Below, piece by piece: positions 6,065 to 15,215 of a stretch of 64,000 nucleotides of DNA (its first letter is position 1; each line of letters opens with the position of its first letter). The stretch comes from Salibacterium aidingense DSM 18341 (GTDB taxonomy: Bacteria; Bacillota; Bacilli; Bacillales; Marinococcaceae). The stretch lies in the NCBI RefSeq assembly GCF_000429685.1, contig NZ_KE386940.1, positions 260,113-324,112 on the forward strand, read 5' to 3'. The notes under the pieces are model-generated. The model did no database searches. It saw only the letters and a program-made list of their open reading frames with translations, and was not told where the DNA came from. The position numbers and the translations under genes were made by a program.

Positions 6065-6649
6065 CTATGTGACAACAACCGGGCGCCCGAAATAATAGCC
6101 TTGAAAAAGCGTACATCCCATGGAAGCAGACTGCTTGAATTCAACGGGAGTTTCCAATTTTTCAGCGAGCAGCTCAAAATTCAAGCCCCGGCGGGCCTCT
6201 ATTATTTTTTGAATATCAGCAGAAGTGCTCTGTCTCCAATCCACTTTCACAATATCTGCATGGGGAAGCAAGGCTGCATTTTCCCTCGATAATACAAAAT
6301 CATCCAATGCAATGCGGTAGCCTTTTTCTTTTAATTCTTTCACGATGTCCACCATTTCCGGAGAACCTTCAATGTCTTCCAAAATTTCTACTATCACTTT
6401 CTCTGCAGGCAGTAATAGAGGGACACGCTGAAGGAGGGAATTTCTTGTGAAATTAATAAAGGCACTATTATAATCTGTAATAATGTCAAGGCCAACGTCC
6501 AAAAAACTATTGAATGCCACATCGGAAGTAGCTTGATCCGGGTCATCCAACAGGAAATTCTGAAAAGGCGTTTTCCGGTACAACAGCTCGTATCCAAATA
6601 CTTTTCCGTTTGCTCTAACAATTGGTTGTCTTGCTACAGAAGTTGTCAT
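6065..6649 (-). CDS. EAL-type domain protein lacking HDOD
   Basis: This 194-residue protein matches the N-terminal half of YuxH-type EAL-HDOD proteins: 'VARQPIV', 'GYELLYR' in place of EAL, 'LDDF', 'LAEKLET', and a closing 'QGYYFGRP'. YuxH-like proteins carry a C-terminal HDOD domain, but here a stop follows the EAL part directly and no HDOD remnant is seen. The catalytic EAL is altered to ELL, so cyclic-di-GMP hydrolysis is doubtful and a binding or scaffold role more likely. The start at 6649 has GGAGG five bases upstream. It lies 29 bases from the nuclease gene in the same direction, so they are probably co-transcribed. Confidence 0.75.
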   Translation of the reverse strand: MTTSVARQPIVRANGKVFGYELLYRKTPFQNFLLDDPDQATSDVAFNSFLDVGLDIITDYNSAFINFTRNSLLQRVPLLLPAEKVIVEILEDIEGSPEMVDIVKELKEKGYRIALDDFVLSRENAALLPHADIVKVDWRQSTSADIQKIIEARRGLNFELLAEKLETPVEFKQSASMGCTLFQGYYFGRPVVVT

Positions 6650-10979: not shown

Positions 10980-12617
10980 ATGAAATTATCGCTGAATATT
11001 TTCAGAACATTCTTTCTTGCTGTTCTATTCAGCCTGGCGCTAACTGCGTGTGCCAGTGAACCGGATGAAAACAGTGAGGATGCAGCAGAAGATAGTGAAA
11101 ATTCAGACACGGCTGAAGAAGGAGAAGGTAATAATGGGGGAGGATCATCAGAAGATCTGGTTATTGCCACAGCATCTGATGCAACCGGCATGGATCCGCA
11201 TGGTTCCAATGACGTTCCTTCGAGTAACGTACAAACCAATATTTTTGAAACCCTGGTAACGCAGGACGAAAATATGGAAATCCAGCCCAACCTGGCAACA
11301 GAGTGGGAACAGATCGATGACACCACCTGGCAGTTCACGCTCCGTGAAGACGTCACCTTCCATGACGGAGCCGAGTTTAATGCGGAAGCCGTAAAAGCTA
11401 CATTTGACCGTATTCGTGATGAAGATGTTGGATCTCCGCGTGCTTTTCTTTATGAAATGGTGACAGAGGTCAACGTTGTTGATGATTATACGGTAGAATT
11501 TGTAACGGAATTTCCTTTTGCACCGCTGCCGGCCCACCTGGCACACAGCGGTGGAGGCATTATTAGCCCAGATGTCATTGAAGAAGACTATGCAATGATG
11601 GAAGAAGGGGAAGACCCGGGGTCTTATATCGATGAAAACCCGGCCGGAACCGGTATGTTTAAGCTGCAGGAATGGGATTCAGGTAATGAAGTTGTATTGG
11701 AGAAAAATGAAGACTACTGGGGAGAAACTCCGGATATCGAAACGGTTACGTTCCAGGTAACGCCGGAGGATCTGACACGGGTCGCAGAACTGGATACGGG
11801 TGCGGCCGATATTATTTTCCCTGTCAGTCCGAGTGATACCTCCCGTGTAGATAATATGGAAAATGCAAGCATGTATGTACAGGACAGCTTAAGTCTGGAA
11901 TATATCAGCTTTAATACACAGAAAGAGCCGTTTGATGATAAACGGGTGCGTCAGGCCATCTCCATGGCTGTCGATAAAGACCAGATTGTGGACGGTATCA
12001 TGGAAGGCGCTGCAACCAAAGCGGTGGCTCCGATTGGAGAAAACGTCTTTGGCTTCAGTGATGAAGTGGAAGGGCTGCCGTATGATCCGGAACAGGCTCA
12101 GGAGCTGCTGGCAGAAGCAGGTTATGAAGACGGCTTTTCGACAACATTATGGACCAATGACGACCGTGAACGCCAGGATATTGCAGAGGTTGTGCAGCAG
12201 CAGCTGCAGCAGATCGGTGTGGAAGTTGAGATTGAAGTACTTGAATGGGGCGCGTATCTGGACAGCACAGCAGAAGGAGAACATGATATGTTCATTCTTG
12301 GCTGGAGCACGGTAACAGGCGACGCCGACTACGGCATGTATCCACTGTTCCATTCTGACAATCATGGCGAACCGGGCAACCGCTCCTTTTATGAAAACGA
12401 AGAAGTAGATTCTCTGCTTGAAGAAGCACGCCGTGAAGGGGATGAAGAGAAGCGGGCCGCTCTCTATGAAGATGTCATGGAAATTCTCGTAGAAGATGCG
12501 CCGATGATTTATTCCCATCACGATGACTACCTCGTGGGAGTCAGCGATGACGTGGAAGGATTCTGGAAACACCCGAACGGTCTCTATCAGCTTCAAGATG
12601 TAAGTATTTCCGAATAA
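10980..12617 (+). CDS. Peptide ABC transporter substrate-binding lipoprotein
   Basis: This 545-residue exported lipoprotein binds peptides or similar solutes outside the cell for the ABC importer encoded divergently. The signal peptide ends in a lipobox 'LALTACAS' with the lipidated Cys near residue 22, followed by about 35 residues rich in Asp, Glu, Ser and Gly that tether the domain. The SBP family 5 body includes 'FHDGAEFNAEAVKATFDR' and 'YISFNTQKEPFDDKRVRQAISMAVDK'. The protein is very acidic, as expected of a halophile's surface protein. Annotated relatives are often called glutathione or dipeptide binding proteins; the true ligand is unknown. Confidence 0.92.
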   Translation: MKLSLNIFRTFFLAVLFSLALTACASEPDENSEDAAEDSENSDTAEEGEGNNGGGSSEDLVIATASDATGMDPHGSNDVPSSNVQTNIFETLVTQDENMEIQPNLATEWEQIDDTTWQFTLREDVTFHDGAEFNAEAVKATFDRIRDEDVGSPRAFLYEMVTEVNVVDDYTVEFVTEFPFAPLPAHLAHSGGGIISPDVIEEDYAMMEEGEDPGSYIDENPAGTGMFKLQEWDSGNEVVLEKNEDYWGETPDIETVTFQVTPEDLTRVAELDTGAADIIFPVSPSDTSRVDNMENASMYVQDSLSLEYISFNTQKEPFDDKRVRQAISMAVDKDQIVDGIMEGAATKAVAPIGENVFGFSDEVEGLPYDPEQAQELLAEAGYEDGFSTTLWTNDDRERQDIAEVVQQQLQQIGVEVEIEVLEWGAYLDSTAEGEHDMFILGWSTVTGDADYGMYPLFHSDNHGEPGNRSFYENEEVDSLLEEARREGDEEKRAALYEDVMEILVEDAPMIYSHHDDYLVGVSDDVEGFWKHPNGLYQLQDVSISE

Positions 12618-12638
12618 TAGACTTAACTGTATGGAAGA

Positions 12639-12668
12639 AGGGGCTGTGCCAAAAGGTACAGCCCCTTT
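12639..12668 (+). terminator. Terminator after the binding-protein gene
   Basis: AGGGGCTGT and ACAGCCCCT pair around a short 'GCCAAAAGGT' loop, followed by TTTCC. A close relative of this hairpin (AGGAGCTGT...ACAGCTCCT) ends the BCCT gene at 14625-14656. Both are followed within 40 bases by a copy of the large repeat. Confidence 0.8.
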
Positions 12669-12700
12669 CCTTTGATAAAGAAAATGGAACCGAGGCAGAA

Positions 12701-12950
12701 GCGGAAGGCGGCGACTCCGGGCCAGCAGGATGTTGGTCATGCAGGCGCTGCCACATGATGTGGCAGTTTTAGCCTGTTTCCTTTTCAAGCAGCAGTCGAA
12801 GATCCCATCAAACGGTGTTTGAGCCCGCAGGAAGCGGGTCAGATCGGCGTTGGCACAGGACGTGCCGAACTTAGCCGATCTTCCTCCATTGATGCAGCGG
12901 AGGCGTGCCCGCGGCAAGCGTCCGCCTGCAGCGGATGCCTCAGCATGTAA
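12701..12950 (+). repeat. Intergenic multi-hairpin repeat, copy A
   Basis: This 250-base element is shared with 14688-14975 (same strand) and in part with 61542-61694 (opposite strand). It holds at least two clear hairpins: CTGCCACA-TGA-TGTGGCAG inside an AGGC/GCCT clamp (about 12742-12773), and AGATCGGC/GCCGATCT enclosing GGCAC/GTGCC (about 12840-12881). The ends, GCGGAAGGCG...GACTCC and AAGCGTCCGCCTGCAGCGGATG, recall intergenic repeats that I remember as common in Bacillaceae genomes. No open frame of note is conserved among copies. Confidence 0.85.
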
Positions 12951-13094
12951 CGTTGAGTACTACTCTTTTCATATTCCCCTTCCTATTTACATATCCTACT
13001 GGAACATGTTAAGGTAACTCCTTGTGTGTCCTCGCAATAAAACGAGATGAGATGCAGGATAGAATAAGTACACATTGAAAAAGGGGAGAATACT

Positions 13095-14615
13095 ATCTCA
13101 GTACAACAACAAAATAAGTCAAACGTAGATTGGACGGTCTTAGGTATCAGCGGAGGTCTCCTGTCATTATTTGTGATCGTATCCTTTATTAATCTGGAGG
13201 CCGTTACATCTTTTGTGAATACAACATTCGGCTGGTCTGTCACATACTTTGGCGCCTTCTGGCAGCTGCTGATGCTGGCGACCTTTGCCGTTTCGATATG
13301 GCTCGCTTTATCTAAATACGGAAAGATAAAATTAGGAAATATGACAGCGCCGGAAATTAGTACGTTTAAATGGATATCCATGATTATGGCAACGCTGCTT
13401 GCCGGGGGAGGAGTATTCTGGGCAGCGGCGGAACCAATGTACCATTTCATGGACACGCCGCCCCTGTTTCAAAATGGAGGAAGCAGCAAAGAAGCTGCAC
13501 CTGCTCTGGCCCAGAGCTTTATGCACTGGGGATTTCTTGCCTGGGCGATCCTTGGGACATTAAGTGCTGTGGTTTTAATGTATGGTCATTACAATAAAGG
13601 GCTGCCTTTAAAACCAAAAACGCTGCTCTATCCCATGTTTGGAGAAAAAATAAACAATAATATCTTTGGCAGAATAATTGACGCGTTTTCCATTATTTCT
13701 GTGGCAGCAGGAACGATTGGGCCTATTGGCTTTTTAGGGCTGCAGGCCAGTTATGGTCTTCAGGCTGTCTTTGGGGTCCCGGATGTATTTGCAACCCAGC
13801 TGGCCATTATCATTGGAGTCGTTATTATTTCCACGATTTCCGCAGTAACAGGACTATATAAAGGTATTCAATGGCTAAGTAAATTTAATGTCCGGCTGGC
13901 ACTGGTTCTTATGGCAGTCTTATTAATCGTCGGGCCAGGAGGCTTTGTTATTGATCAGTATATCGTATCGTTTGGTACTTATCTGGATCAATTCCTATCC
14001 ATGGGCACCTATCGGGGCAATAACGACTGGCTTGGTCTCTGGACCGTATTTTTCTGGGGCTGGTTTATTGGATATGGACCGATGATGGCAATGCTGGTAA
14101 GCCGTATTTCCAGAGGACGGACGGTACGGGAAATAATGATCGCTGTCTCCATTATTGCTCCGGTTGTAACCACATTCTGGTTTACGGTGGTAGGCGGTTC
14201 CGGCATCTTTTTTGAAATTCAGAATCCAGGTTCTGTCTCTGATGCTTTGATGGATACCGGCATGCATGCAGCGATGATCGCGATCACCGAACAATTCCCA
14301 CTGGCCGGTGTTATTACTCCACTGTTTCTGCTGCTTACCATATTATTTGTGGTCACTACCACAGATTCCATGGCATTTACGATATCTATGGGAGTCACAG
14401 GGGAAGAAAATCCCCAGAGCAGTATTCGTGTATTCTGGGCAGTACTGATGGGGTGTGTTGCCGCGATTCTGCTCTACATTGGAGAGGGAAGTGTGGAAGC
14501 ATTGCAGAACTTCATTGTGGTCACAGCCGTACCAGTATCCCTTCTGCTTCTCCCCATGATATGGCTGGCCCCCCGGGTCGTCCGGAAAATGGCAGACGCA
14601 CAGAATATAAAATAA
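13095..14615 (+). CDS. BCCT family transporter, apparent AUC start
   Basis: This 506-residue, twelve-helix secondary transporter belongs to the betaine/choline/carnitine family, used for osmolyte or quaternary ammonium uptake. Recognisable are 'SKYGKIKLG' after helix 2, 'FWAAAEPMYHF', and 'SRISRGRTVRE'. The first canonical start (GTG 13173) would cut helix 1. Between an in-frame stop at 13065-13067 and that GTG there is no ATG, GTG or TTG, but ATC at 13095 lies six bases after GGGGAG and gives a normal N-terminus (SVQQQNK...). The usual Trp-rich binding box is changed to 'FWGWFIGYGP', and the GMGIG motif to 'LLAGGG', so the substrate may differ. It is monocistronic. Confidence 0.85.
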   Translation: MSVQQQNKSNVDWTVLGISGGLLSLFVIVSFINLEAVTSFVNTTFGWSVTYFGAFWQLLMLATFAVSIWLALSKYGKIKLGNMTAPEISTFKWISMIMATLLAGGGVFWAAAEPMYHFMDTPPLFQNGGSSKEAAPALAQSFMHWGFLAWAILGTLSAVVLMYGHYNKGLPLKPKTLLYPMFGEKINNNIFGRIIDAFSIISVAAGTIGPIGFLGLQASYGLQAVFGVPDVFATQLAIIIGVVIISTISAVTGLYKGIQWLSKFNVRLALVLMAVLLIVGPGGFVIDQYIVSFGTYLDQFLSMGTYRGNNDWLGLWTVFFWGWFIGYGPMMAMLVSRISRGRTVREIMIAVSIIAPVVTTFWFTVVGGSGIFFEIQNPGSVSDALMDTGMHAAMIAITEQFPLAGVITPLFLLLTILFVVTTTDSMAFTISMGVTGEENPQSSIRVFWAVLMGCVAAILLYIGEGSVEALQNFIVVTAVPVSLLLLPMIWLAPRVVRKMADAQNIK

Positions 14616-14624
14616 AAGAAAAGA

Positions 14625-14656
14625 AAGGAGCTGTCTCAAAAGGTACAGCTCCTTTT
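14625..14656 (+). terminator. Terminator after the BCCT gene
   Basis: AGGAGCTGT pairs with ACAGCTCCT around 'CTCAAAAGGT' and is followed by TTTTC. It lies ten bases after the BCCT stop codon. Confidence 0.85.
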
Positions 14657-14687
14657 CTATGTTCAAGAAAAACCACTTTGGGCAGGA

Positions 14688-14975
14688 GCGGAAGGCGACT
14701 CCGGGCCAACAGGAGGTTGGTCATGCAGGCGCTGCCACATGATGTGGCGGTTTTAGCCTGTTTCCTTTTCAAGCAGCAGCCGAAGATCCCATCAAACGGA
14801 GGCTCCCATGATAGGAGTCAGATCGGTGTTGGCACAGGACGTGCCGCACTTAGCCGATCTTCCTTCAGGGATGTAGCTGAGGTGCTGCCCGGCGGCAAAG
14901 AAGACACGGCGATCCGAAGGGAGCCGATGTCGCGCTTGTGCTCTGGAGTAAAAGCGTCCGCCTGCAGCGGATGCC
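14688..14975 (+). repeat. Intergenic multi-hairpin repeat, copy B
   Basis: This second copy aligns with 12701-12950 along most of its length, with about 60 extra or rearranged bases before the shared 'AAGCGTCCGCCTGCAGCGGATG' end. Differences fall within stems but keep pairing: CTGCCACA/TGTGGCGG has a G-U pair where copy A has A-U, and AGATCGGT/GCCGATCT has a U-G pair where copy A has C-G. That pattern suggests the folded form matters. Confidence 0.85.
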
Positions 14976-15009
14976 CATGTACTTACGAAAGCCCCTGCCT
15001 TCTTCGTAT

Positions 15010-15215
15010 ACAGAAGAGGCGGACATTTATTCCGTTATTTCTTCGATTTTCCCCATTTTGAAAGGATAATTGGACATTTGTTCCGTTATTTCCCCCTTTT
15101 AATGTAAAAGAAGCGGTCCAAAGTCCAGATAGCGGAATAAATGTCCGAAAAAGCCTCCCGAGCCCGCTCACTCTGCCATTTAACGGAATATATGTCCGCG
15201 AGGTGCCTCTTCTGT
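15010..15215. repeat. Nested palindromic, MITE-like element
   Basis: The 17-base unit GGACATTTATTCCGTTA occurs at 15021-15037 and, with one change, at 15072-15088. It returns inverted at 15130-15146 and 15181-15197. The outermost arms are extended by ACAGAAGAGGC (15010-15020) and its exact complement GCCTCTTCTGT (15205-15215). The whole stretch could fold into one long double hairpin. It encodes no gene. It resembles non-autonomous palindromic intergenic elements of Bacillaceae, but I cannot name its family. Confidence 0.75.

Follow-up and report, generated by a model that had tools for sequence, protein, structure and literature searches.

A BCCT-family transporter gene with a probable AUC/AUU start codon conserved in six species of three bacterial genera

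The window analysed here, a stretch of 64,000 nucleotides from Salibacterium aidingense DSM 18341 (contig NZ_KE386940.1, positions 260,113 to 324,112), carries a gene of the BCCT transporter family, for which initiation at an AUC codon has been proposed. The gene and the elements around its start are as follows.

13095..14615, forward strand: BCCT-family transporter gene, 506 codons plus stop from the proposed ATC; match to PF02028 at 507.7 bits
13095..13097, forward strand: putative AUC start codon, matched by ATC or ATT in the orthologues of five other species
13083..13088, forward strand: Shine-Dalgarno (SD) motif GGGGAG, 6 nt before the ATC; AAAGGAG in the relatives
13065..13067, forward strand: in-frame TAA stop, 10 codons 5' of the proposed start
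13173..13175, forward strand: GTG, the first canonical in-frame codon; it falls within helix 1 and lacks conservation in the relatives

The whole frame in the window comprises 515 codons, and the match to the BCCT model PF02028, which begins at frame residue 24, is full-length (model positions 1-483 of 485, with a score far above the cut-off of 27 bits). Proteins of this family import salt-protective compounds (osmolytes), and helices 1 and 2 form no part of their ten-helix transport core. The best-matching solved structures are those of a trimethylamine transporter, of choline transporters and of further BCCT proteins, BetP among them. Because all five matches to NCBIfam BCCT subfamilies (TIGR00842, NF047988, NF007399, NF002887 and NF007412) fall below their curated cut-offs, no substrate was assigned. 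The genome of the window contains 11 BCCT matches, and there are 37 other BCCT places in four genomes of the genus; a canonical codon (ATG, GTG or TTG) is available near the N-terminus in all 28 of those that were read, including nine of the ten in the window genome, and two of these 28 copies are closer, with 57-58% identity.

Downstream of the TAA at 13065-13067, the frame reads GTA CAC ATT GAA AAA GGG GAG AAT ACT ATC TCA, and re-reading of the sequence bore out the original observation that no ATG, GTG or TTG occurs between this stop and the GTG at 13173. The position given earlier for the SD motif likewise agrees with the sequence: GGGGAG stands six bases before ATC 13095, the spacer AATACT occupying positions 13089-13094, and the spacing becomes 8 nt if the pairing is taken as AAAGGGG. 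The GTG at 13173 is frame residue 36, and a protein started there would lack the N-terminal 12 positions covered by the Pfam match, in line with the truncation of helix 1 that had been foreseen for such a start.

Comparison with orthologues, proposed at the outset as a check, yielded the same arrangement in five other species, with ATC or ATT (together ATY) as the candidate start and with ATG in none of the close relatives, a result in favour of the proposed AUC start. The six ATY species comprise that of the window genome (G000), three congeners (G001, G002 and G003), Alteribacillus persepolensis and a member of a third genus (G028); the codon is ATC in G003 and ATT in G002, G001, A. persepolensis and G028. 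Identity to the window protein is 88, 82 and 82% for the three congeners, 80% for A. persepolensis DSM 21632, whose orthologue is identical in sequence in the genome G006, and 72% for G028, and ranges from 70 to 95% among the six species. Counted from ATY, the orthologues are 500-517 codons long, with open frames. In each of the five relatives, AAAGGAG is followed after 8-9 bases by ATY, without a nearby upstream ATG, GTG or TTG, such that a strong SD with ATY at the proper distance is found in six of six species; the predicted energy of the SD/anti-SD duplex is -8.0 in the window and falls between -8.1 and -8.7 in the relatives. With codons numbered from the aspartate of the DW motif as 0, ATY aligns at codon -11 in every one of the six species except G028, whose ATT lies three codons further upstream, with ATA at the aligned codon.

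The pattern of substitutions separates coding from noncoding sequence in this region. Across the 15 species pairs, codons 0 to +45 have mismatch frequencies of 0.21, 0.11 and 0.53 at codon positions 1, 2 and 3, the codon pairs being identical in 269 cases, synonymous in 269 and nonsynonymous in 152; on this evidence, helix 1 is under protein-level selection. For codons -20 to -12, the corresponding values are 0.47, 0.56 and 0.55, without a coding pattern, and in-frame stops occur there in G003 and A. persepolensis. The N-terminal tail between these regions (codons -10 to -1) shows no conservation at the protein level (of 150 codon comparisons, 28 are identical, 12 synonymous and 110 nonsynonymous), and for this reason the exact start codon was deduced from the SD spacing and from its invariance. 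In G003 and G002, the first ATG, GTG or TTG after the upstream stop stands only at codon +46 or +47, which we take to lie in helix 2 by the usual BCCT topology. Since codons 0 to +45 evolve as protein and hold no canonical codon in these two species, entry into the frame would most simply take place between about -14 and 0, an interval in which ATY is the sole near-cognate codon common to the six species at the proper distance from the SD; further near-cognates are ATT at -1 (G003 and A. persepolensis), ATT at -12 (A. persepolensis) and the ATA at -11 of G028.

In five of the six species, the 40 codons that precede the DW motif contain no ATG, GTG or TTG. In the sixth, G001, an in-frame TTG is found at codon -39 (its ATT is at -11); this TTG begins at position 6599 of locus L150 on the minus strand, 7 nt past the end of a predicted -10 hexamer at 6606, and thus lies at the presumed transcription start. 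G002, the sister of G001, has an in-frame stop at codon -26. Judged by the aligned frames, there is no usable canonical start in two of the species and none that is well placed in the rest, and we consider it very probable that translation of the BCCT gene initiates at ATY, that is, at ATC 13095 in the window.

In the wider family, the start region could be placed by alignment for 132 loci, of which 116 distinct frames remained after removal of 16 repeated sequences. Within the 40 codons that precede DW, the canonical codon closest to the motif is ATG in 72 of these frames, GTG in 23 and TTG in 16 (G001 being among the TTG rows), and five frames have none; with start labels assigned by rule, a canonical codon is available in the other 110 of the 116 distinct relatives, and in the more distant ones ATG, GTG or TTG is found at about the place of ATY. 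In a protein tree of the 116 rows, built by a quick method with a midpoint root and with long branches flagged elsewhere, the six ATY rows fall on one side of a single branch (SH-aLRT 90), requiring one label change. Most simply, the ATY start would have arisen once, in an ancestor of the six species from three genera, and would have been kept since. We also screened 464 kb of the genome, made up of the window and 400 kb of sampled stretches, for genes without a canonical start. Of 314 ORFs kept by codon score, 35 were flagged, among which the BCCT gene ranks 29th by score; on informal inspection, it is the only flagged ORF of the 464-kb screen that combines ATC after a strong SD with the lack of a plausible canonical start. 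A null distribution drawn from 259 stop-to-stop ORFs, in each of which the first canonical codon was located, was uninformative, as many of the long ORFs looked like shadow frames.

The textbook case of an AUU-start gene is infC, which encodes the initiation factor IF3. In the same six genomes, the infC region has ATT-ATT after GGAGGTGG, and this doublet, which is followed by an in-frame ATG (ATT ATT CGT AAC GAT ATG), would by analogy be the infC start in all six. The BCCT start of A. persepolensis is itself a tandem ATT ATT (L151 6016-6021), the same doublet as in its infC start region. The two genes are thus alike in that a strong SD precedes ATT, as in the relatives of the BCCT gene in the window, and they differ in that the BCCT product is a membrane transporter, so that no feedback on IF3 is self-evident. 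Binns and Masters reportedly found in 2002 that expression of pcnB in Escherichia coli is limited by its AUU start; the product in that case is a poly(A) polymerase of a gamma-proteobacterium.

Several better characterized systems can be set beside the BCCT gene. The non-canonical AUU or AUC start of infC (ATC in Streptomyces) is described as being discriminated against by IF3, with autoregulation of the gene, and the stress-related Streptomyces gene sigR, with an extended ribosome-binding site, has a GTC start repressed by IF3 and conserved in 34 species (GTC in 32, GTT in two); a rise in SigR translation under oxidative stress could not be demonstrated (PMC5472188). The conserved codon in two forms, GTC or GTT, resembles the ATC or ATT of the BCCT gene, although the codon is another one and the repression by IF3, demonstrated for sigR, is for the BCCT gene something that we infer. 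In staphylococci, Ribo-Ret and reporters identified conserved starts with strong extended SDs in cvfC1 (AUU) and ccpN (AUA); the non-canonical starts tested in S. aureus are stated to give about 10% of the AUG reporter in RPMI, and in rich medium ccpN AUA rose to 30% while cvfC1 AUU was unchanged (PMC13009471). These genes share with the BCCT gene the conserved non-canonical start, the strong SD and the affiliation with Firmicutes, but they encode a small protein and a repressor rather than a transporter. Fixed, experimentally mapped non-canonical starts are also described for Listeria rnhC (ATC) and infC (ATT), along with the reporter order ATG > ATA > ATT (PMC13068326); the likeness lies in an ATC or ATT start that has become fixed within a species, and the differences in the genes concerned and in conservation having been considered within one species. 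Finally, in vitro, more IF3 is reported to lower the full-length fraction for AUU read by a CAU anticodon (PMC10158994).

By the mechanism that we propose, the strong SD would direct the ribosome to AUC 13095, where the initiator tRNA would read AUC, so that the protein would begin with methionine (MSVQQQ...). Initiation at AUC or AUU, poor but helped by the strong SD, would hold synthesis of the transporter well below the level reached with AUG and would render it dependent on the stringency of IF3, as for infC. On balance, we lean towards the view that the ATY start limits expression of the BCCT gene and is IF3-sensitive. The BCCT start may also have some link to the osmotic or growth state. 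More tentatively, and this we regard as rather doubtful, the transporter might belong to an IF3-governed set of genes, because infC and the BCCT gene both have ATY starts in the same cells; any change in IF3 activity brought about by growth or salt would then alter osmolyte uptake through translation.

The most durable alternative accepts the AUC/AUU start as real and denies it a regulatory role: a weak start might be tolerated because little of the protein is needed, be compensated by the SD, or be kept by chance. We hold this to be possible though not likely. The SD is strong in six of six species, and no leader structure, regulator or IF3 response points to control; RNAalifold on the six leaders, given inputs of unequal 3' length, returned no conserved pairs, and single-sequence folds of the leaders gave no SD occlusion common to the species. 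Yet the start keeps A, T and then C or T throughout, and none of the six species has ATG, which is one third-base change away, despite saturated synonymous sites. Such saturation among about five lineages is deduced from fourfold-site identity, which lies at 0.23-0.38 in 14 of the 15 species pairs, the exception being G001/G002 at 0.65. For some five independent lineages, the retention of ATY hints at selection in favour of a weak start or, failing that, at the absence of selection for a strong one. Moreover, the published conserved non-canonical starts lowered expression (PMC5472188; PMC13009471).

An alternative to initiation at ATY itself is an upstream canonical start, in another frame or before the stop, from which a frameshift or readthrough of the stop would bring ribosomes into the BCCT frame. 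Short upstream ORFs do exist in the window (ATG 13047, ATG 13052 and TTG 13075), and ATGA overlaps lie 5' of the SD in G003 and A. persepolensis. By inspection, however, no upstream ORF has a frame and position common to all six species, and G002 and G001 have no ATG before the SD; the in-frame stops vary in kind (TAA, TGA) and in their distance upstream of ATY (7 to 33 codons), whereas the spacing between SD and ATY is maintained. We consider this route improbable.

Still less probable is a start at a downstream canonical codon, GTG 13173 in the window, which would leave a protein without most of helix 1. This GTG is the first in-frame canonical codon (codon +15), TTG is the first one at +10 in A. 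persepolensis and at +11 in G028, and the position of BCCT helices 1 and 2 outside the transport core, noted above, might make such a loss bearable; a start inside helix 1 is formally possible in these three species, the only ones in which the helix contains a canonical codon. In G001, the first downstream canonical codon, GTG at +29, falls just after helix 1, and in G003 and G002 it is the one at +46 or +47, although the codons before it evolve as protein. The downstream codons thus stand at a different place in each species, and it is ATY that the strong SD precedes. Neither GTG 13173 nor CTG 13161 (codon +11), the two sites named earlier as alternatives, is conserved as a start in the relatives, which disfavours both: the former aligns with GTT, GTC, GTC, GTT and GCC, and the latter with TTA, TTA, TTA and CTT, and with TTG in G028. 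A sequencing error, recent mutation or pseudogene, by which a single-base change of ATG could yield a lone ATC, was rejected as hardly credible, being contradicted by the same codon class in separate assemblies of six species and by open orthologue frames under strong purifying selection.

Conserved non-canonical starts are already known as a kind, and the BCCT gene appears to be a new member; among the matches listed from the open-licence literature, none describes a BCCT gene that starts at a non-canonical codon. Start codons other than ATG, GTG or TTG that persist across species are known from few bacterial genes (for example, infC, sigR, cvfC1 and ccpN), and a clade-wide AUC/AUU transporter would add a membrane protein to these examples. 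Gene finders limited to the three canonical codons would shorten the transporter or misplace its start. The ATY clade and its ATG relatives lend themselves to a natural comparison, which could address the reasons for retaining a weak start and a possible control of solute uptake by IF3 activity; if true, the reading in which IF3 shifts osmolyte uptake would make the start codon itself a further level of osmoregulation.

The surroundings of the gene contain the following additional features.

12986..13015, forward strand: possible promoter TTTACA-18-TAAGGT, weak and noted by eye, with a poor -10; not called by the scan
12722-12787, 12824-12890, 14706-14771 and 14803-14869, minus strand: pairs of Bacillaceae-1 RNA (RF01690) on either side of the BCCT gene

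A sigma-70 scan called no promoter in the window leader and one each in G001 and G002, against an average of 0.7 in shuffled sequences. The leaders of G001 and G002 carry TTTACA-18-TATATT, and a degenerate pattern derived from them matched these two BCCT leaders only. In the four genomes of the genus, the upstream neighbour is presumably an oligopeptide-type binding protein gene, and the downstream neighbours, in these genomes and in A. persepolensis, are genes that we take to be mreB-like and lplA-like, all names being assigned from motifs. None of the neighbour-gene motifs searched for was found at the G028 locus. The ATY start thus travels with the gene and not with one neighbourhood. The upstream side in A. 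persepolensis (L151 1626-5589) has, by eye, the look of a trehalose-type operon, with a GntR-type regulator, a glycosyl hydrolase and a PTS permease. An Rfam search of window positions 12500-15200 (E up to 1) gave four matches, all to Bacillaceae-1, which with 62 matches in the genome, 57 of them over the cut-off, is therefore an abundant intergenic repeat.
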